A program made the translations under genes and the position numbers. Below, one piece after another: positions 2,370 to 23,975 of a stretch of 32,324 bases of DNA (position 1 is the first letter of the stretch; each line of letters opens with the position of its first letter). A model generated the notes under the pieces. The model worked only from the letters and a program-made list of their open reading frames with translations, had not been told where the DNA came from and searched no databases. The DNA is taken from positions 1-32,324 of the forward strand of contig CALHLW010000255.1 in assembly GCA_938034615.1 (NCBI GenBank), given 5' to 3'. This DNA is from an uncultured Neomegalonema sp. (GTDB taxonomy: Bacteria; Pseudomonadota; Alphaproteobacteria; Rhodobacterales; Rhodobacteraceae).

Positions 2370-3035
2370 CTAGCTATCGTCTGCGCTGCGCAGGCCGTAT
2401 GTCGCGAATCCGGCTGCGGCTTCGGCAACCTCGGCCTCCGATAACAGGACCGGACTGCCGAGCGCGAGGGCATGGTGGTATTGACGGGCCAGAGTTTCGA
2501 GCTCGACTGCCCGCCACAGAGCCTTTGCCAGCGTTTCGCCCAGCGTGATCATGCCGTGATTGGCGAGGAGGCAGGCGGTGCGCCCTTCCAGCGCGTCGAG
2601 TGCCGTGGCCGACAGTGCCGCCGTCCCGAAGGTTTCATACTCCGAACACCGCACATCATTCCCACCGAAGGCCGCGATCATGTAATGCGCCGCCGGTATC
2701 CCCCGCCGTGTCATCGCGAAGGCCGTGCAATAGGGCGGATGGGCATGAACGACCGCCTCGATCTCTGGCCTTTCGCGCAGGATATCGCGATGGAAGCGCC
2801 ATTCGGTCGAGGGCGGAAGAGGGCCATGCCATTCAGGCTCGTCACCGTCCAGGCCACAGCTTGCGAGCGATGCGGGGGTCATTTGATCGTAGGGCGTTGC
2901 CGAGGGTGTGACGATCATCCGATCCCCGAACCGGGTGGCGATATTGCCAGATGTCCCCTGATTGATCCCGGCGGCGTTCATCGACAGGCATCCGTCAATG
3001 ATCGCGCGCCGCATGGCTTCTTCGTCGGGGGTCAC
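2370..3035 (-). CDS. Class II aldolase/adducin-domain protein (FucA-like)
   Basis: A 221-residue soluble class II aldolase, related to L-fuculose-phosphate aldolase. Such enzymes use a divalent metal, usually zinc, to cleave or form sugar-phosphate C-C bonds. Visible marks are the phosphate-binding GTSGN (residues 27-31), a Glu78 in STEWRFH matching the FucA catalytic glutamate, the metal pair His97/His99 in HAHPP, and His160 in ANHGM. Translation starts at GTG (3035), whose bases overlap the stop of the upstream quinone oxidoreductase gene (GTGA), so the two genes are probably translationally coupled. Relatives in this family also act as decarboxylases or epimerases, so the exact sugar substrate is open. 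Confidence 0.85.
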   Translation of the reverse strand: MTPDEEAMRRAIIDGCLSMNAAGINQGTSGNIATRFGDRMIVTPSATPYDQMTPASLASCGLDGDEPEWHGPLPPSTEWRFHRDILRERPEIEAVVHAHPPYCTAFAMTRRGIPAAHYMIAAFGGNDVRCSEYETFGTAALSATALDALEGRTACLLANHGMITLGETLAKALWRAVELETLARQYHHALALGSPVLLSEAEVAEAAAGFATYGLRSADDS

Positions 3036-4012
3036 ACCGTCAGGACCGTCGCGCCGGTGGTCTTGCGCGCTTCGAGCGCCCGGTGCGCCGCGGCCACATC
3101 GTCGAGGGCAAAACGCTGGTCAATGCGGATCGATACGTCGCCGCTTGTGACCTTCTCGAACAGGTTATCGGCCATCTCCTGCGTTTTCTCGCGGGTGTTG
3201 ATGTGGCCGAAGAGGGTCGGGCGTGTGACGTAGAGACAGCCTTTCGGGCCTAGAATACCGGGGTCGAAGGGAGGCACCTTGCCCGACGCATTCCCGAACG
3301 TGACCATCAGGCCGAAGGGTTCGAGGCAATCGAGCGAACCCTCCCACGTGTCCTTGCCAACCGAATCGAGGACTGCACGGACGCCGTTGCCGCCGGTCAT
3401 CTCTTTGACGCGGGCGGCGAAATCTTCGGTGCGGTAGTTAATGGTGAAGGCCGCGCCGTGCTCCTTGGCCAGCGCACATTTCTCGTCGGTTCCTGCGGTG
3501 CCGATCAGCGTGACACCCTGCGAGCGCGCCCATTGGCAGGCGATCAGGCCCACGCCTCCCGCCGCCGCATGAAACAGGATCGTATCGCCCGCTTTCAGTT
3601 GCGCCGTGCGGTTGAAAAGATATTCGACCGTCAGCCCTTTCAGCATCATCGCCGCGCCGGTTTCGAAACTGATGTCGTCAGGCAGCTTGCAGACATGCAT
3701 TGCCTTCATCACTCGCGCCTCGGAGTAGGAACCGGGAGGACCGGAGGCATAGGCGACCCGGTCGCCTTCCTTCAGATGCGAGACGCCGGAGCCGACCGCC
3801 TCGACGACGCCCGCCGCCTCCATTCCAAGGGTTGCGGGCATGGGTAGGGGATAGAGGCCCTCGCGCTGATAGACATCGATGAAGTTCAGGCCGCAGGCAT
3901 GGTGCCGGACCCGGATTTCCCCGTCTCCCGGCTCGCCGAGCGCGATCTGGACGATCTTCATGGCGTCCGGTCCACCCGGCGTCTCGATCTGCACGCATTT
4001 CACGTCGGCCAT
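3032..4012 (-). CDS. qor: NADPH:quinone oxidoreductase, MDR family
   Basis: A 326-residue zinc-independent medium-chain dehydrogenase/reductase of the QorA type, which reduces quinones with NADPH in the cytoplasm. Evidence: an N-terminal GroES-like domain with GLNFIDVYQREGLYPLP and LGMEAAGVVEAVG, then a Rossmann domain with the nucleotide-binding AAAGGVGLIACQWA. The zinc-binding cysteines of alcohol dehydrogenases are absent, as expected. The start is ATG at 4012, preceded by AGGGAG at good spacing; an upstream in-frame ATG at 4039 has no such site. Length matches the family. The aldolase gene follows with a 4-base overlap. A strong promoter lies at 4048-4076. Acryloyl-CoA reductase (AcuI) is a distant relative, but the sequence reads as QorA-like. 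Confidence 0.9.
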   Translation of the reverse strand: MADVKCVQIETPGGPDAMKIVQIALGEPGDGEIRVRHHACGLNFIDVYQREGLYPLPMPATLGMEAAGVVEAVGSGVSHLKEGDRVAYASGPPGSYSEARVMKAMHVCKLPDDISFETGAAMMLKGLTVEYLFNRTAQLKAGDTILFHAAAGGVGLIACQWARSQGVTLIGTAGTDEKCALAKEHGAAFTINYRTEDFAARVKEMTGGNGVRAVLDSVGKDTWEGSLDCLEPFGLMVTFGNASGKVPPFDPGILGPKGCLYVTRPTLFGHINTREKTQEMADNLFEKVTSGDVSIRIDQRFALDDVAAAHRALEARKTTGATVLTV

Positions 4013-4047
4013 GGTCTGCTCCCTGTGTCGAAAAATCATTCCTTGAA

Positions 4048-11751: not shown

Positions 11752-11767
11752 CGCCTTACTTCACAGG

Positions 11768-11835
11768 CGTGCTTCGGGTGCACGGGGGAGACATCCCTGC
11801 TGCATCCACCCGGTGTCCAGCCGTACGGTTGGATG
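11768..11835 (+). promoter_or_regulatory. Structured rpsB mRNA leader (three small hairpins)
   Basis: Three short inverted repeats follow the predicted start site: CGTGC/GCACG (11768-11772 with 11780-11784), GGGA/TCCC (11786-11789 with 11794-11797), and a longer one centred on CCGTACGG (arms about 11816-11823 and 11826-11833, one G-U pair). Ribosomal protein S2 represses its own operon through the leader in E. coli; a comparable role here is inference. Confidence 0.4.
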
Positions 11836-11876
11836 ACAGGCGCGCCGAGGATCAACCGGAAAAAATCGGAGACGAC

Positions 11877-17798: not shown

Positions 17799-18653
17799 AT
17801 GAGCCGGGTCGTTTATGTCAACGGTGAGTACGTCCACGAAGAGGACGCGAAGATCTCGGTCTTTGATCGGGGGTTCCTGTTCGCGGATGGCGTGTACGAG
17901 GTCGCGGCGGTCATCGGTGGGAAGCTGGTGGATAACGAGGCGCATCTGAAGCGGCTGGAGCGCTCGCTTACGGAACTGAAGATGCGGTGTCCGGTGCCTT
18001 TCGAGGACATTCCCGCCATCCAGCGTGAACTCGTCGAGGTAAACGATATTGACGAGGGGATGGTCTATCTTCAGGTCAGCCGGGGTGTTGCGGACCGGGA
18101 CTTCACTTTTCCGAAGAAAGAACAGCCGAGCCTCGTGTTGTTCACTCAGGACCGACCCGTTTCCAACAGCCCGAAGGCCGTGCGCGGTATCCGCGTCAGC
18201 ACGCAGCCCGATATTCGCTGGAAGCGGCGGGATATCAAGACGGTGCAGCTACTCGCGCAATCGCTGGTCAAGGAAGCGGCGCTTTCCGCCGGGGCGGATG
18301 ATGCGTGGATGGTGGAAGACGGGTTCGTGACCGAGGGGTCGTCGAACAATGCTTTTATCGTCACCACAGATGGGACGCTGGTTACGCGCCAGCTCGGCAA
18401 TAATATTCTCCACGGCATCACGCGTCGGGCGGTGCTGGAGATTGCGGCGGAGGAGGGGCTGACCGTCGAGGAACGGCCCTTCACCGTGGAAGAAGCACAG
18501 GGCGCGGCGGAGGCGTTCTCGACCAGCGCCTCGGCGCTCGTCATGCCGGTCATCAGTATCGACAACAAGACGATCTCGCAGGGCGTACCGGGGCCGGTCA
18601 CCCAGAAACTGCGCGAACGGTATATCGAGATCGCACGGGAGACAGCGGTTTGA
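17799..18653 (+). CDS. dat: D-amino-acid (D-alanine) aminotransferase
   Basis: A 284-residue class IV PLP enzyme (fold type IV). It interconverts D-amino acids and 2-oxo acids in the cytoplasm, for example supplying D-glutamate or recycling cell-wall D-alanine. Evidence: NGEYVHEEDAKISVFDRGFLFADGVYE, the PLP lysine Lys147 in RRDIKTVQLLAQS, and VTEGSSNNAFIV with Glu179. These resemble Bacillus D-alanine aminotransferase more than the branched-chain enzymes. ATG at 17799 has a GGGGAG site eight bases upstream. The stop overlaps the methyltransferase start (TGATG). Confidence 0.88.
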   Translation: MSRVVYVNGEYVHEEDAKISVFDRGFLFADGVYEVAAVIGGKLVDNEAHLKRLERSLTELKMRCPVPFEDIPAIQRELVEVNDIDEGMVYLQVSRGVADRDFTFPKKEQPSLVLFTQDRPVSNSPKAVRGIRVSTQPDIRWKRRDIKTVQLLAQSLVKEAALSAGADDAWMVEDGFVTEGSSNNAFIVTTDGTLVTRQLGNNILHGITRRAVLEIAAEEGLTVEERPFTVEEAQGAAEAFSTSASALVMPVISIDNKTISQGVPGPVTQKLRERYIEIARETAV

Positions 18654-19891
18654 TGGACCCCGTCGCGCGACAATACGAAGCCTACCCCTATCCCGAGCGT
18701 GACCCCGCCGAAGAGGCGATGCGCCTGATTACCGGATCGCCGAGCCATCCCGTCGAACTTGATCATTTCCTCTTTGGTGGAGCGAGGGACTGGTCGCGGC
18801 CTTTCCGGGCGCTGGTAGCGGGGGGGGGCACGGGCGATGGGCTGATCATGCTCGCGCAGATCCTTGCGGATAACGGGGTCGATGCCGAGATCGTCTATCT
18901 CGATATGTCGGTGGCCAGCCGCCATGTTGCGGAGGGACGAGCGGCGGCGCGCGGGTTGACGAATATCCGGTTCGAGACCGGCGATCTGCTTCGGGCATCG
19001 GAATACGGGTCGTTCGATTACATCGATTGCTGCGGGGTGCTGCATCATCTGTCCGATCCCGATGCGGGCTTTGCCGCTCTGCGGGGTGCGCTGGTCGAGG
19101 GGGGCGGGATCGGGGCGATGGTCTACGCGCCATATGGCCGTGCCGGGGTCTATGAGATGCAGGATGCGCTGCGGGCGCTGGTCGGAGACGATCCGCCGGA
19201 AGTGCAGGTGGCTCATACCAAGGCGTTAATCCAGTCGCTCGTGCCGACGAATGGCCTCAAGCGCAATCCTTTCCTGAACGATCATGCCCATGGTGGAGAT
19301 GCAGGGCTTTACGATCTGCTGCTGCACAGCAGGGACCGACCCTATGATGTGGATGCATTGTTCGATGCTCTGGAGCGCGCAGACCTCGCGTTCGTTTCGT
19401 TTGCGACGCCGGGGCGGTATGACCCAAGGCTGATGCTATCCGATCCGGTGCTGCGAGAGCGGGCGGGGGCGCTGACCTATCGCCAGTGCGCGGCGCTTGC
19501 GGAACGGCTCGTCGGGAATATCAAGGTGCACTGCTTCTATGCGGCGGCGAAGGGCGCGCTGTCCCGGATCGCGGAGCCGTCACCTGCCTCGGTGCCCTCG
19601 TTGATAGGAGTGTCGGGCGCTGCGCTCGCCGAGTCGATCTTCAAGAACGGTGTGATTCGGGGCGAGGTTGACGGGGTCGGTTTTCAGCGCGCTTTGCCCA
19701 AGGATGCGGCGGGGATATTGACGGCGGTGGACGGGCGGCGCAGCCTCGAAGACATCCGGCGCATGATCGGATGGGAGCCGGGGCGGTTTAATGATCTTTT
19801 CGCGACTCTCTATCAGCCGTTGAACAATTTTGGCCTGATGCGGTTCAGTCGTCTGAAGCGTGCGGCGGCGAAGCCTTCGTCTCGATTGTGA
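18653..19891 (+). CDS. Class I SAM-dependent methyltransferase
   Basis: A 412-residue protein with a Rossmann methyltransferase core: motif I ALVAGGGTGDG near residue 53, an acidic end of strand 2 (IVYLDMS), and DYIDCCGVLHHLSDPDAGF as the post-I/motif IV region. The N-terminus PVARQYEAYPYPERDP is characteristic of a subgroup of bacterial methyltransferases. The C-terminal ~60 residues (GILTAVDGRRSLEDIRRMIG and on) resemble a small winged-helix or PqqD-like module; that is a guess from pattern. The substrate is unknown. Its start overlaps the aminotransferase stop, so both are probably made together. The last 47 bases overlap the opposing hydrolase-OsmC gene. Confidence 0.8.
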   Translation: MDPVARQYEAYPYPERDPAEEAMRLITGSPSHPVELDHFLFGGARDWSRPFRALVAGGGTGDGLIMLAQILADNGVDAEIVYLDMSVASRHVAEGRAAARGLTNIRFETGDLLRASEYGSFDYIDCCGVLHHLSDPDAGFAALRGALVEGGGIGAMVYAPYGRAGVYEMQDALRALVGDDPPEVQVAHTKALIQSLVPTNGLKRNPFLNDHAHGGDAGLYDLLLHSRDRPYDVDALFDALERADLAFVSFATPGRYDPRLMLSDPVLRERAGALTYRQCAALAERLVGNIKVHCFYAAAKGALSRIAEPSPASVPSLIGVSGAALAESIFKNGVIRGEVDGVGFQRALPKDAAGILTAVDGRRSLEDIRRMIGWEPGRFNDLFATLYQPLNNFGLMRFSRLKRAAAKPSSRL

Positions 19892-21041
19892 CGGTGCCTT
19901 CCAGCATCCGGTGAACGGGGCAGCGGTCGGCGATTTCGATCAGTCGCGTGCGTTGTTCTTCGGTCAGGTCGCCGCTCAGATGGATCATGCGCTGGAAAGT
20001 GCTGTTGTGCCGGTCGGTCTGTTCCCATGTTACATCGACCTGTGCCGCGCCCGCATCCCAGCCCTTGCGGTTCGCGTACATCCGCATCGTCATCGAGGTA
20101 CAGGCACCTAGGCCCGCCCCGACGAATTCGAAGGGTGACAGGCCGCGATCCGTGCCGCCAACTTTGACCGGCTCATCCGCCCATGCGCGGCGGTCGCGGG
20201 TGGCGTCGATGGCGGTGAAGAAGCCGGCGGTATCCATCTCGCGGATACGCACGCCTGCTTTCGGTGCGGGGATTTCGGCGACGGCAGGCAGGTATCGACT
20301 GGCCCAGACGGCGATGGTATCGGCGGCGTAATCGGCATCGGCGGGTTTGGTGAGCAGGTGGTCGGCGTCGTCGAGGCTGACGAAGCTCTTGGGGTGTTTG
20401 GCGGCTACAAATATCTGACTCGCGTTCTCGACTCCGACGGTGGCGTCGCGAGGCCCGTGCATAACGAGGAGCGCGCGGCCAAGTTTGGCGAGGCGGTCGT
20501 CCAGTGTGGTGGCGTCGATATCGTCCAGAAACGCTTTGCGGATGGTGAAGGGGCGACCGGCGAGGCTGACTTCGGCTTCGCCATCGCGCTCGATCTCTTC
20601 GCGGCGATCTTCGAACTGGTGGACGACATGGGCCGGGTCGGCGGGCGCGCCGATTGTGGCGACGGCACTGACCTCGGGGATGCGGGACGCGGCGGCGATG
20701 ACGGCGGCTCCGCCTAGCGAATGGCCGACGAGGAGGGCAGGGGGCATCCCATGCTCGCGAAGGGCCTTTGCCGCCGCGACGAGGTCGTCGGTGTTGGAGG
20801 TAAACGTCTCGTTCGCGAATTCGCCTTGGGAATGACCGAGACCCGTGAAGTCGAAGCGCAGGACGGCAATGCCGTTTTCCGCCAGCCGCCGCGCAATGCG
20901 GCGGGAGGCGACGAAATCCTTCGAGCAGGTGAAGCAATGGGCGAAGAGGGCGGTGGCGCGGGGTTCGCCCGCCGGGAGGTCGAGACGCCCGGACAGGTGT
21001 ATGCCGTCATGGCCCTCGAACGTGAATTCCTCGCTGCGCAT
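19845..21041 (-). CDS. Bifunctional alpha/beta hydrolase-OsmC fusion
   Basis: A 398-residue two-domain protein. Residues 1-255 are an alpha/beta hydrolase with the nucleophile elbow GHSLGG (Ser108), acid Asp199 in HGPRDATV, and His228 in DADHLL. Residues about 262-390 are an OsmC/Ohr domain with the redox cysteines Cys314 (GLGACTSMTMR) and Cys374 (DRCPVHRML). OsmC proteins reduce organic hydroperoxides by thiol chemistry; the hydrolase may release a substrate from an ester. This fusion is a known but little-studied family. I chose ATG at 21041 because AGGAGG is seven bases before it, while the ATG at 21047 lies only one base from it. It follows dddP by 51 bases. Confidence 0.88.
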   Translation of the reverse strand: MRSEEFTFEGHDGIHLSGRLDLPAGEPRATALFAHCFTCSKDFVASRRIARRLAENGIAVLRFDFTGLGHSQGEFANETFTSNTDDLVAAAKALREHGMPPALLVGHSLGGAAVIAAASRIPEVSAVATIGAPADPAHVVHQFEDRREEIERDGEAEVSLAGRPFTIRKAFLDDIDATTLDDRLAKLGRALLVMHGPRDATVGVENASQIFVAAKHPKSFVSLDDADHLLTKPADADYAADTIAVWASRYLPAVAEIPAPKAGVRIREMDTAGFFTAIDATRDRRAWADEPVKVGGTDRGLSPFEFVGAGLGACTSMTMRMYANRKGWDAGAAQVDVTWEQTDRHNSTFQRMIHLSGDLTEEQRTRLIEIADRCPVHRMLEGTVTIETKASPPHASDD

Positions 21042-21092
21042 TGCCATCCCTCCTGATTCGTTGAACCGACCATACGCGAGAGAGCGATCACG

Positions 21093-22427
21093 TCAGGTCA
21101 GGAAACGGTCATCGAAGGGGTAGCGGGTCAGGTTCTCAAAGCCGTCTTCGGTGATGAGTACCTGATCCTCCAGTTTGATGCCGCAGGGGCCGCCGACCTC
21201 GCCGTAATAGACTTCGACGCAGAGGGTCATGCCCGGTTCCAGCGTGGTGTCATGCATCCCAGCTTCCCAATCCTGCGGATAGCGAACGGAGGGGTATTCG
21301 TCGCACAGGCCGACGCCGTGATAGACGACGCCGTAGCGTTGTTCGGCGTATTTCGCGGGCAGAGGCTGGGCCATGCGCGTGAGGTCGTCGATGGTGAGGC
21401 CGGGGCGGAGCAGGGCCATGTTGGTCATGATGTGATCGTGGGCGTCGCGATAGATTTGCTTTTCGTAGGCGGTCGGTTCGACGTCACCGACGATCCATGT
21501 GCGGCTGAGGTCCGAGCAGTAGCCGTAGGGGCCGATGAGGTCGGTATCGAAGGCGAAGATTTCGCCCTCCGCGATGACGCGCGGTCCGGCCTCCTGAAAC
21601 CAGGGGTTCGTGCGGGGGCCGGAGGAGAGGATGCGGGTTTCGATCCACTCGCCGCCCCGGATATGGTTTCCGTGTTGCAGGATCGCCCAGGCATCGACTT
21701 CGGTGATGCCGGGGCGGATCATGGCCTCCATCTCGTGCATGGCGGCTTCGCAGGCGGCGATGGCGCAGCGCATGGCGTTGATTTCGTTGTCGTTCTTGAT
21801 GACGCGGGCAAATTCGGTGACTTCCTGACCGTTGGTGATTTCGATGCCGAGATTTTCGAGGGCGAGGTGGCCTGCGCGTTCCATCCGGTCCACGGCGAGG
21901 CGGCGGTTGGCGCCGCAATGGACGCGCATGAGGCCATCGATTTCGGCGGCGAAATGGGCGGCGTGCTGGTCCACCAGTCCGGCGCTTTCGAAATAGAAGA
22001 AGCTCGCGCCGTGGCGGACCTCTCGGATGAGTGGCAAGTGGGCGGTCAGGTGTTCGGAGCCGTGGAAATCCCACAGGACAACGTAGCCATCCGCCGAGAC
22101 GAAGCAGGCGCGCGCAGGGTTATGCGTCGTCCAGAGCTGCATATTCGTGGAATCGGTGATGTAGCGGATATTCAGCGGGTCGAAGGTCAGGACGCCCGCG
22201 AGATCGCGTTTCTGTAGCTGATCGACGATTCGCGACAGGCGGTATTCGCGCAGGCGCGGCATGTCGGGGGGCGTGATGCCGAGGGCGGCCCATTCGGTGA
22301 AGGCGAGGTCGGTCGGGCCGGTTTCGACCCGGTCATTGTCTCTGGGGGTGCCGTCGGGTTTGAACAGGGTCGTTGCGCGGCGACGGCTGGGGTCGATCTT
22401 GCGGTTCGATCCGGTCTGGATATTCAT
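21093..22427 (-). CDS. dddP: DMSP lyase DddP (M24 metallopeptidase fold)
   Basis: A 444-residue M24-fold protein that matches roseobacter DddP along its length, as I recall those sequences: RKIDPSR near the start, FDPLNIRYITDSTNMQLW, GGEWIETRILSSGPRTNPWF, HGVGLCDE. DddP splits dimethylsulfoniopropionate into dimethyl sulfide and acrylate at a dinuclear metal site. The metal and catalytic positions known from the Ruegeria lacuscaerulensis structure all fall here with an offset of one: Asp294, Asp296, Asp306, His370, catalytic Asp376, Glu405 and Glu420. Prolidases of the same fold lack the LCDE arrangement. A strong GGAGGA site precedes ATG. It lies 87 bases after ssb with no visible terminator between. 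No other ddd or acu gene is in the window. Confidence 0.87.
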   Translation of the reverse strand: MNIQTGSNRKIDPSRRRATTLFKPDGTPRDNDRVETGPTDLAFTEWAALGITPPDMPRLREYRLSRIVDQLQKRDLAGVLTFDPLNIRYITDSTNMQLWTTHNPARACFVSADGYVVLWDFHGSEHLTAHLPLIREVRHGASFFYFESAGLVDQHAAHFAAEIDGLMRVHCGANRRLAVDRMERAGHLALENLGIEITNGQEVTEFARVIKNDNEINAMRCAIAACEAAMHEMEAMIRPGITEVDAWAILQHGNHIRGGEWIETRILSSGPRTNPWFQEAGPRVIAEGEIFAFDTDLIGPYGYCSDLSRTWIVGDVEPTAYEKQIYRDAHDHIMTNMALLRPGLTIDDLTRMAQPLPAKYAEQRYGVVYHGVGLCDEYPSVRYPQDWEAGMHDTTLEPGMTLCVEVYYGEVGGPCGIKLEDQVLITEDGFENLTRYPFDDRFLT

Positions 22428-22514: not shown

Positions 22515-23006
22515 TCAGAACGGGATTTCATCGTCCAGATCGGGGGCATAGCTTTCGCGGGGAGGCTCGTTGCCGCTGGAATAGCCGCCGCCACTGCCTT
22601 GCGAGTAGCCGCCACCCCCTTGCTCGTATCCGCCGCCACCACCGCCACCATCACGGCGACCGTCGAGCATCGTCAGTTCAGAGCGATAAGGGCGCAGGAC
22701 CACCTCGGTCGAGTATTTGTCCTGTCCGCTCTGGTCTTGCCACTTGCGGGTTTCCAACTGGCCCTCGATGTATATTTTCGAGCCTTTTTTCAGGTATTGC
22801 TCGGCTACGCGAACGAGTGGTTCGGAAAAGATCGCAACGCGGTGCCATTCGGTGCGCTCCTTGCGCTCGCCGGATTGCTTGTCCTTCCAGGTTTCGGAGG
22901 TCGCGATGGAAAGGTTGCAGACCTTTCCTCCGTTCTGGAACGTGCGGACCTCCGGGTCATTGCCCAGATTGCCGATCAGAATGACTTTGTTGACGCTGCC
23001 AGCCAT
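22515..23006 (-). CDS. ssb: Single-stranded DNA-binding protein
   Basis: A 163-residue SSB. Residues 1 to about 110 are the OB fold ([55 protein letters not shown]), followed by a Gly/Tyr/Ser-rich flexible linker and the acidic tip DLDDEIPF that recruits repair and replication partners. ATG at 23006 begins the conserved sequence; the frame extends to 23072 without it. The gene has a promoter at 23044-23072 with a perfect LexA operator across its -10 edge, so it should be induced by DNA damage. Confidence 0.97.
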
Positions 23007-23030
23007 GCGCTGAACCCTCCCAGAAGATAA

Positions 23031-23045
23031 GAACTTTTGCAGAAC
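23031..23045. promoter_or_regulatory. LexA operator of ssb (GAAC-N7-GAAC)
   Basis: GAAC (23031-23034), seven bases, GAAC (23042-23045); on the ssb strand this reads GTTC-N7-GTTC, the alphaproteobacterial SOS box. It overlaps the last two bases of the ssb -10 box, ideal for repression. Confidence 0.85.
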
Positions 23046-23072
23046 ACTATTGCATTCGATGTCTCTTGCCAA
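23044..23072 (-). promoter_or_regulatory. Predicted ssb promoter
   Basis: On the minus strand TTGGCA (23067-23072), 17 bases, TAGTGT (23044-23049), about 38 bases upstream of the ssb start. The LexA operator overlaps its downstream edge. Confidence 0.65.
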
Positions 23073-23178
23073 TCATGGAATCCGATTTCCCGCAAGAATT
23101 TGTTCACCCTGTTTCATGCAGTGTACGCGGTATGGAAGTCATGGTCGGGATGTGATCGTGGCGACAGGAGAATGAACG

Positions 23179-23829
23179 ATGAAGCTCGATACCCTCACCC
23201 CCCGCGTCTTTCTGGCCATCGGTCTTGCCGGAGCGCTTTCCGCCTGTGCCTCGTCCGGGCCGCAACGGCAGGTCTATGCACCGCCTCCACCACCACAGAG
23301 CGCTCAGCCGCCCGCGGCCCGGCCCTATGCTGTTCAACCACCGGCAGCACGGCCTTATGCGGCGCAACCGCCCGCGGCCCGGCCTCCTGCTGCACGTCCA
23401 CCGGTTGCACAGGTGCAAGCGCCACCTCAGCCGGCGCCTCAGCAACAGACAGAGCGTCAGGTTGCCATCGGAGGCACCGCGTTCCCGGTCGATGGGTCGG
23501 AGGGCCGCGTTCCGTCGGGGTCGCGCCTCGTTGTGCGTGTCTATGATGCGGCTGGCGGTGATGTGAATGTTCGCGCTGCGGAAGGGGCCTTCAGGGTCTC
23601 CGAGGGGCTGCCCGTTCGGTACAAGGTGCCGGTCGCCGCGCGGGCGATGAACGAGATGGAGCTTCCTGCCGTCGCGGCCCGCGTCGAAGGACCGCGTGGC
23701 GGGGTGATCTATCGCAACGAGACGGCGGTTTTGCTCAAATCGGGTGCAGCGGGTGATATTCCGATGACGCTTCAGCGCAAGCAGGCGGCCAGCTCGGTGA
23801 CGACGGCATGGGACGCGCTGGCGGAGTGA
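23179..23829 (+). CDS. Lipoprotein with Pro/Ala repeats and a YbaY-like domain
   Basis: A 216-residue predicted lipoprotein. The signal sequence ends LSAC with Cys23 as the lipidated residue. Residues 31-92 are Pro/Ala/Gln-rich, with a 10-residue unit repeated three times, probably an extended spacer. Residues about 95-205 resemble the YbaY (PF09619) beta-sandwich: GGTAFPVDGSEGRVPSGSRLVVRVYD, then the VPVAARAMNEM region, and VIYRNETAVLL. YbaY-like proteins are envelope lipoproteins of unclear function. The start has an AGGAG site nine bases upstream. It is transcribed away from ssb and ends at a terminator. Confidence 0.78.
   Translation: MKLDTLTPRVFLAIGLAGALSACASSGPQRQVYAPPPPPQSAQPPAARPYAVQPPAARPYAAQPPAARPPAARPPVAQVQAPPQPAPQQQTERQVAIGGTAFPVDGSEGRVPSGSRLVVRVYDAAGGDVNVRAAEGAFRVSEGLPVRYKVPVAARAMNEMELPAVAARVEGPRGGVIYRNETAVLLKSGAAGDIPMTLQRKQAASSVTTAWDALAE
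23305..23394 (+). repeat. Three tandem 30-base coding repeats (QPPAARPYAx)
   Basis: Residues 43-72 of the lipoprotein are three copies of a 10-residue unit: QPPAARPYAV, QPPAARPYAA, QPPAARPPAA. A degenerate fourth unit starts RPPVAQ. The copy number may vary between strains. Confidence 0.8.
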
Positions 23830-23857
23830 TCTGCTTTTTCGTGCGGCCCAAGATTTG

Positions 23858-23890
23858 CGCCATCCTCGTCTCTGGCGAGGGTGGCGTTTT
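23858..23890 (+). terminator. Intrinsic terminator after the YbaY-like lipoprotein gene
   Basis: An 11-bp stem with one G-U pair, CGCCATCCTCG (23858-23868) with CGAGGGTGGCG (23876-23886), a 7-base loop, then TTTT. It lies 28 bases past the lipoprotein stop. Confidence 0.85.
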
Positions 23891-23975
23891 GCCTTCTGGC
23901 GCATCATTTAGTTTCAGGTCTATATCGACTTCCGTCTATGGTGAGTTCCCATGCGGAATATCTCGAAGAATAAAG

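Follow-up and report, generated by a model that had tools for sequence, protein, structure and literature searches.

A dddP gene, most likely encoding an active DMSP lyase, outside the Roseobacter clade in an uncultured Neomegalonema

The window, by which we mean the whole analysed stretch of 32,324 nucleotides, belongs to contig C255 of a genome of an uncultured Neomegalonema sp. (3.75 Mb in 263 contigs, 98% complete). The gene under study and its neighbours are arranged as follows.

18650..19891, plus strand: methyltransferase gene, convergent with the hydrolase-OsmC gene
19845..21047, minus strand: fusion gene for an alpha/beta-hydrolase and an OsmC domain (Pfam), on the strand of dddP and 45 bp downstream of it
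21093..22427, minus strand: dddP, predicted DMSP lyase of the DddP family with an M24 metallopeptidase fold, 444 amino acids, ATG start at 22427 and stop ending at 21093
22515..23072, minus strand: ssb (Pfam, NCBIfam), upstream neighbour of dddP across a gap of 87 bp

A purine-rich stretch resembling a ribosome-binding site (GGGAGGA) lies just 5' of the dddP ATG. A search for sigma-70-like promoters between 19700 and 23300, which is a weak guide for this organism, found none. Both the GC content and the codon use of dddP are native, its codon fit being the best among the 16 window genes, and composition thus gives no support to a recent foreign origin. We treat ssb as context without a DMSP role; it also lies upstream of dddP in L218 and L080, and no ssb match was found in L081, L082 and L216. 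A homologue of the methyltransferase gene flanks dddP in L144, L150, L153, L230, L231 and L237. Between ssb and uvrA, the window encodes a 267-residue protein (23104-23907, minus strand) that has no Pfam or NCBIfam match and is 42-46% identical to its counterparts in the two genus loci where these were found (L080, L218). The sole Rfam match of the window, to the rpsB sRNA (11762-11875, plus strand; 42.8 bits, gathering score 40), lies away from dddP.

The best PDB matches of the dddP product are the DMSP lyase of Ruegeria lacuscaerulensis, RlDddP (4rzy, 4s00, 4s01; 521 bits, E 1.9e-155; 56.2% identity over 432 aligned pairs), and that of Roseobacter denitrificans, RdDddP (4b28; 496 bits; 53.4% identity), and the prolidases come next with at most 76 bits. 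The NCBIfam equivalog for DddP (NF043017) matched the full length of the protein with a marginal score of 604.6 bits against a cut-off of 600. An AlphaFold2 model built with 31 sequences as input (mean pLDDT 86, with low confidence in the first 10 residues and in residues 96-102, the loop that holds W99) superimposed on 4b28, 4s00, 4rzy and 4s01 with Z of about 52 and an rmsd of 1.6 over 426 residues. The two characterised enzymes share with the window protein the fold, the length, the N-terminal extension, the metal ligands and the tryptophan, tyrosine and aspartate residues discussed below. The Peptidase_M24 domain (Pfam, 121 bits) and a set of metal ligands mostly shared with M24 peptidases, as stated in the available portion of PMC4108388, would also suit an ordinary peptidase (prolidase or aminopeptidase P) with no more than a resemblance to DddP, and the M24B enzymes do share the pita-bread fold and the metal ligands with the window protein. 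We nevertheless regard this reading as hardly credible and rejected it on the NCBIfam scores, the tree and the structure comparison. The second-best NCBIfam model, a peptidase equivalog, reached 57.1 bits of the required 630, and another peptidase equivalog 55 of 393. The best prolidase fitted the model with a Z of 33.4 and an rmsd of 2.9 over 357 residues, and M24B prolidases and aminopeptidase P are about 16-25% identical to the window protein in the structural rows. Moreover, the N-terminal loop-helix extension is present here, its alignment with RdDddP starting at model residue 18 (residue 9 of RdDddP), whereas most peptidase rows lack it and align only from model residue 39-62. RlDddP itself was inactive on Val-Pro in the assay recorded in the consulted part of PMC5395565.

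An earlier note on this DNA had stated that seven residues known from the RlDddP structure are each present one position earlier here, and the alignment bears this out exactly. With the two further residues that would contact the substrate, the codons are placed by alignment as follows.

22131..22133, minus strand: W99 (RlDddP W95)
21546..21548, minus strand: D294 (RlDddP D295, metal ligand)
21540-21542, minus strand: D296 (RlDddP D297, metal ligand)
21510-21512, minus strand: D306 (RlDddP D307, metal ligand)
21333..21335, minus strand: Y365 (RlDddP Y366, mutated to Ala in 4s00)
21318..21320, minus strand: H370 (RlDddP H371, metal ligand)
21300..21302, minus strand: D376 (RlDddP D377, candidate catalytic base; D377N in 4s01)
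21213..21215, minus strand: E405 (RlDddP E406, metal ligand)
21168-21170, minus strand: E420 (RlDddP E421, metal ligand)

All six metal ligands, together with W99, Y365 and D376, are therefore in place. We take W95 of RlDddP to be the tryptophan that binds the sulfur of DMSP. That a tryptophan of RlDddP does so, along with the mechanism on which we draw, comes from the portion of PMC5395565 available to us, and the roles of the metal ligands come from that of PMC4108388. Judged by its homology to RlDddP, the protein would have a two-metal centre in its C-terminal pita-bread domain, formed by D294, D296, D306, H370, E405 and E420, in which one metal would anchor the carboxylate of DMSP while W99 and Y365 would hold its sulfonium end. 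D376 would take the alpha proton, and beta-elimination would release DMS and leave acrylate, which might be passed by a candidate acyl-CoA synthetase to AcuI; demethylation of DMSP by DmdA would be a further route. The activity, the metal, the substrate and the flow of acrylate are what we infer for the window DddP, whereas its sequence, site residues, predicted fold and tree position and the presence of dmdA and acuI are results of the analysis.

The earlier note had also relied on the completeness of this active site. It is indeed complete, but it is weaker evidence than was implied, as the 12 key residues tested are common to 157 of 177 aligned rows, including uncharacterised M24 relatives (L001, a duplicate, and the fragments L043, L044, L049 and L050 had been dropped beforehand). 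Seven M24 relatives with 46-49% identity (L073-L079) keep the whole DddP residue set, even though four of them align only from residue 53-55 and have no N-terminal extension; these seven are of interest for DMSP activity. Among 20 more distant relatives, translated by tblastn, W99 and/or D376 are lost in 15 (28-42% identity); of the other five, three deviate at E260 alone and one at W261 alone, and one (46% identity) keeps all 12. Thus, an intact site is necessary and not diagnostic for DddP, and we rejected it as proof of family membership. In addition, 14 sites that are at least 96% conserved in the canonical rows differ in the window protein, and we know of no catalytic role for any of them.

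Family membership, which the NCBIfam score and the PDB matches also indicate, was examined by phylogeny with characterised DddP enzymes. For the trees, 91 of the 177 rows were kept, rows being removed if they were more than 80% identical to a kept row (with a few named exceptions) or shorter than 380 residues; leaving out 18 distant rows, L143 and L071 gave a tree of 71 rows, which was rooted on six rows. In this tree the window protein lies inside a clade of 65 rows (100/99) that contains RlDddP and RdDddP, and in a quick tree of all 91 rows, distant ones included, it lies in a clade of 67 rows (support 99). Placement with the prolidases was not seen. Its immediate clade has six rows (100/94), namely the window protein, the Neomegalonema rows L080 and L081, and three alphaproteobacterial rows beyond the genus, L052 and L053 (coded family f105) and L060; we found no report of an assayed member of this clade. 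RlDddP and RdDddP fall in a canonical clade of 25 rows (100/100), which also holds second copies from the genus (L045, L047) and from which the window protein is excluded. A tree constrained to put the window protein and its genus within the canonical clade was rejected (p-AU 0.000541, for a group taken from the tree under test). As it was worded, the claim that the protein follows roseobacter DddP throughout therefore finds no support, whereas membership of the DddP family does. Its identity to the two characterised enzymes compares with 60-66% to relatives outside the genus, those with a group name belonging to other orders, so that it is not especially Roseobacter-like.

In a sample of 196 genomes whose order and family we take to be Rhodobacterales and Rhodobacteraceae, 116 carry a DddP over the cut-off, and the window protein scores lowest of them, the next reaching 679.6 bits and others up to 925. 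Of the other low scorers in the same family, twelve (680-840 bits) were placed in a quick tree, and every one of them went to the canonical clade (30 rows, SH-aLRT 100), while most of the higher-scoring DddPs of the order were left unplaced. Because this branch scores at the edge of a curated cut-off in a largely Roseobacter-like order, such cut-offs may miss or misplace dddP genes. In the part of PMC10686828 that we consulted, dddP ranks first in abundance among bacterial DMSP lyase genes, with about 65% of ddd genes in the Tara data.

The closest named records are MAGs of uncultured Neomegalonema sp. with 83-93% identity, several of which may be the same assemblies as the sampled genus genomes. 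An orthologue of dddP is present in 14 of 14 genus genomes, in two of them as a fragment, and the MAG orthologues L080-L082 likewise have the hydrolase-OsmC gene next downstream; we came across no assay of these orthologues. The window genome holds a single DddP (protein search, E 1e-5), unlike some genomes of the genus. A second copy, 53-57% identical to the window protein, occurs in five of the 14 (one as a fragment; second-copy rows L045-L048, L050 and L129) and falls in the canonical clade where it was placed; in L217 it lies between a gene for an AMP-binding synthetase and chromate transporter genes.

We regard the window gene as very probably that of a functional DMSP lyase of the DddP family, on a branch outside the canonical Roseobacter clade. 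This is the best reading because the tree brackets the protein between assayed canonical enzymes and the branch of the SAR116 strain IMCC1322. On the first side, RlDddP and RnDddP are assayed lyases according to the section of PMC5395565 that we used, and that of PMC4108388 likewise covers assayed canonical enzymes. On the second side, the consulted portion of PMC4304780 gives strain-level evidence, as IMCC1322 (Candidatus Puniceispirillum marinum) released DMS from added DMSP and its dddP transcription was raised. L058/L213 from genome G419 is presumed to be the DddP of this strain; G419, in which acuI lies directly upstream of dddP, fits the description of IMCC1322 in the accessible text of PMC3338564. 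This presumed IMCC1322 DddP is 59% identical to the window protein, has all key residues and is likewise outside the canonical clade, although it forms a separate clade (100/100) and the window dddP has no acuI upstream. Another SAR116-type protein, L069, from the same coded family as L058/G419, falls in the canonical clade of the 71-row tree, and the SAR116 MAG L143 does so in the quick tree. The SAR116 support for activity is thus thin. The Oceanimonas/Psychrobacter-type DddPs (L086, L089), of which L086 may correspond to DddP1 or DddP2 of Oceanimonas doudoroffii, belong to a different clade, although L086 is 64% identical to the window protein and has the same key residues. Activity has also been recorded at low identity, since a scallop-symbiont DddP showed activity in E. 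coli although it shares only 55% identity with the closest reference, DddP2 of O. doudoroffii (PMC10989825, in the part available), and Hehemann et al. described two active fungal DddPs that are 50% and 32% identical to RdDddP.

A DddP-fold enzyme whose main substrate is another small compound (sulfonium- or betaine-like, or an amide of small size) and which has little or no DMSP lyase activity seems to us improbable. The branch outside the canonical clade and a DddP equivalog score just 5 bits over the cut-off would agree with such an enzyme, as would the relatives at 63-65% identity held by Pseudomonas species. If these are soil or plant bacteria, DMSP is no obvious substrate for them. The Km values of DddP for DMSP, which are in the millimolar range in a table within the portion of PMC5395565 seen, would also fit. 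Against this, W99, Y365, D376 and all metal ligands are intact, the canonical lyases and the SAR116 branch bracket the protein in the tree, and the genome is rich in DMSP genes, all of which argues for the DMSP lyase reading.

These other genes lie on other contigs. The dmdA gene (577.6 bits, cut-off 410; best PDB match 3tfh) adjoins acuI (446.3 bits, cut-off 440) on contig C61 (L179), and three cupins exceed the Pfam cut-off for DMSP_lyase, on contigs C213 (L181), C110 (L182) and C33 (L180). The best PDB matches of all three cupins are DMSP lyases (E 5e-19, 7e-57 and 6e-33, respectively); the C33 cupin gene comes immediately after one for a protein of the zinc-type dehydrogenase/quinone reductase type. 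The genome further encodes one BCCT transporter and two near full-length matches to the PrpE model (675 and 553 bits, both under the cut-off of 827). It was therefore correctly expected that acrylate handling, as far as AcuI is concerned, would be encoded outside the window. The alcohol dehydrogenase at 3032-4039, considered as a candidate AcuI, was rejected with 24 bits against the cut-off of 440, and it fits a quinone reductase (389 bits, cut-off 348). Likewise, among the own-genome matches listed, the dddP contig has none to the GCV_T (DmdA), cupin DMSP_lyase or PrpE models, in line with the absences asserted before as far as these models cover them. At the end of the contig, a choline/glycine-betaine-type ABC permease (49-504; 174 bits over part of the ChoW model, cut-off 363) could be an importer of compatible solutes or of DMSP. 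From the DMSP gene set, the suggestion of a marine organism is plausible. A link of the Neomegalonema MAGs to a macroalgal survey (PMC10233909) was considered and found no support, as the name Neomegalonema does not occur in the accessible portion of its text.

With such a gene set, DddP may be active and yet play a minor part while the cupin lyases and DmdA carry out most of the turnover of DMSP. This reading is compatible with the one preferred here, and we consider it less likely than not. The three cupins over the cut-off (64.7-78.8 bits), their structural matches and the presence of DmdA point in this direction. On the other hand, the retention of dddP in all 14 genus genomes with well-adapted codons indicates a maintained role, and the lyase activity of the cupins is putative, none of the three having a match among the NCBIfam models at 1e-20.

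An unexpected feature of the locus is the hydrolase-OsmC gene. It is present in 146 of the 196 order genomes (E 1e-40), and 101 have both it and a dddP over the cut-off, a co-occurrence with a hypergeometric probability of 1.4e-6 when kinship among the genomes is ignored. In 93 of these 101 the hydrolase-OsmC gene lies within 6 kb downstream of dddP, every time on the same strand (93/93), and in the remaining eight it was not found within 6 kb, two being at 12 and 21 kb. This downstream, same-strand position is frequent in the canonical clade and is shared by the window locus; as a criterion it comes from this analysis and is unpublished. Two MAGs that group with SAR116 or lie near it by identity (L104, L110) carry acuI, the hydrolase-OsmC gene and dddP consecutively, and a related gene of shorter length adjoins dddP in L124. 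Beyond the order, a general linkage is not supported: in seven alphaproteobacterial genomes of the class sample (G417, G382, G477, G286, G303, G546 and G474), several of them fragmented assemblies, comparison by eye put the hydrolase-OsmC gene and a dddP of 55% identity or more on different contigs. A literature search on OsmC with dddP, or, among the matches listed, with DMSP or acrylate, yielded no published report of the linkage, the one paper that names both dddP and OsmC being taken as unrelated from its title.

In a tree of the hydrolase-OsmC protein, from which L124 (290 residues) was excluded and whose intended outgroup was not recovered as a single side of any branch, Neomegalonema is sister to the rows of its coded family together with a single row from a different family (27 rows, 99/93). 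This is close to the published species placement, in which Neomegalonema is the sister of Rhodobacteraceae (PMC7179689, as far as its text was available), whereas the adjacent Neomegalonema dddP departs from that pattern. This discordance between dddP and a neighbour that roughly keeps to the species tree points to exchange or parallel insertion. Accordingly, the dddP slot in Neomegalonema may reflect exchange, repeated insertion beside the neighbour, or differential loss from two ancient copies. Because dddP is codon-adapted and present throughout the genus, the event was probably an old one. We tentatively propose, as a less than even prospect, that dddP and the hydrolase-OsmC gene are a functional pair, in which the second might deal with damage or products arising from the cleavage of DMSP (acrylate or peroxide stress). 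Such a pair would have formed repeatedly with different dddP lineages, the canonical one in Rhodobacteraceae, the present branch in Neomegalonema and the SAR116-type in two MAGs, and the Neomegalonema slot would have been taken by a dddP of another lineage where the sister group holds the canonical one. The recurrent neighbour is a concrete candidate, and one easy to test, for an accessory role in the cleavage of DMSP. The window gene is a real and most likely active DddP from outside the Roseobacter clade, an ordinary enzyme at a locus with a curious history.

A plasmid origin was considered and rejected, as 179 PLSDB plasmids carry relatives of the window protein, one with 62.5% identity (Oceanisphaera, annotated as DddP) and 178 below 60%. 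Rhizobium and Sinorhizobium account for 152 of these 179 plasmid records, and a DddP with 53-54% identity is annotated on Paracoccus yeei plasmids from human samples.
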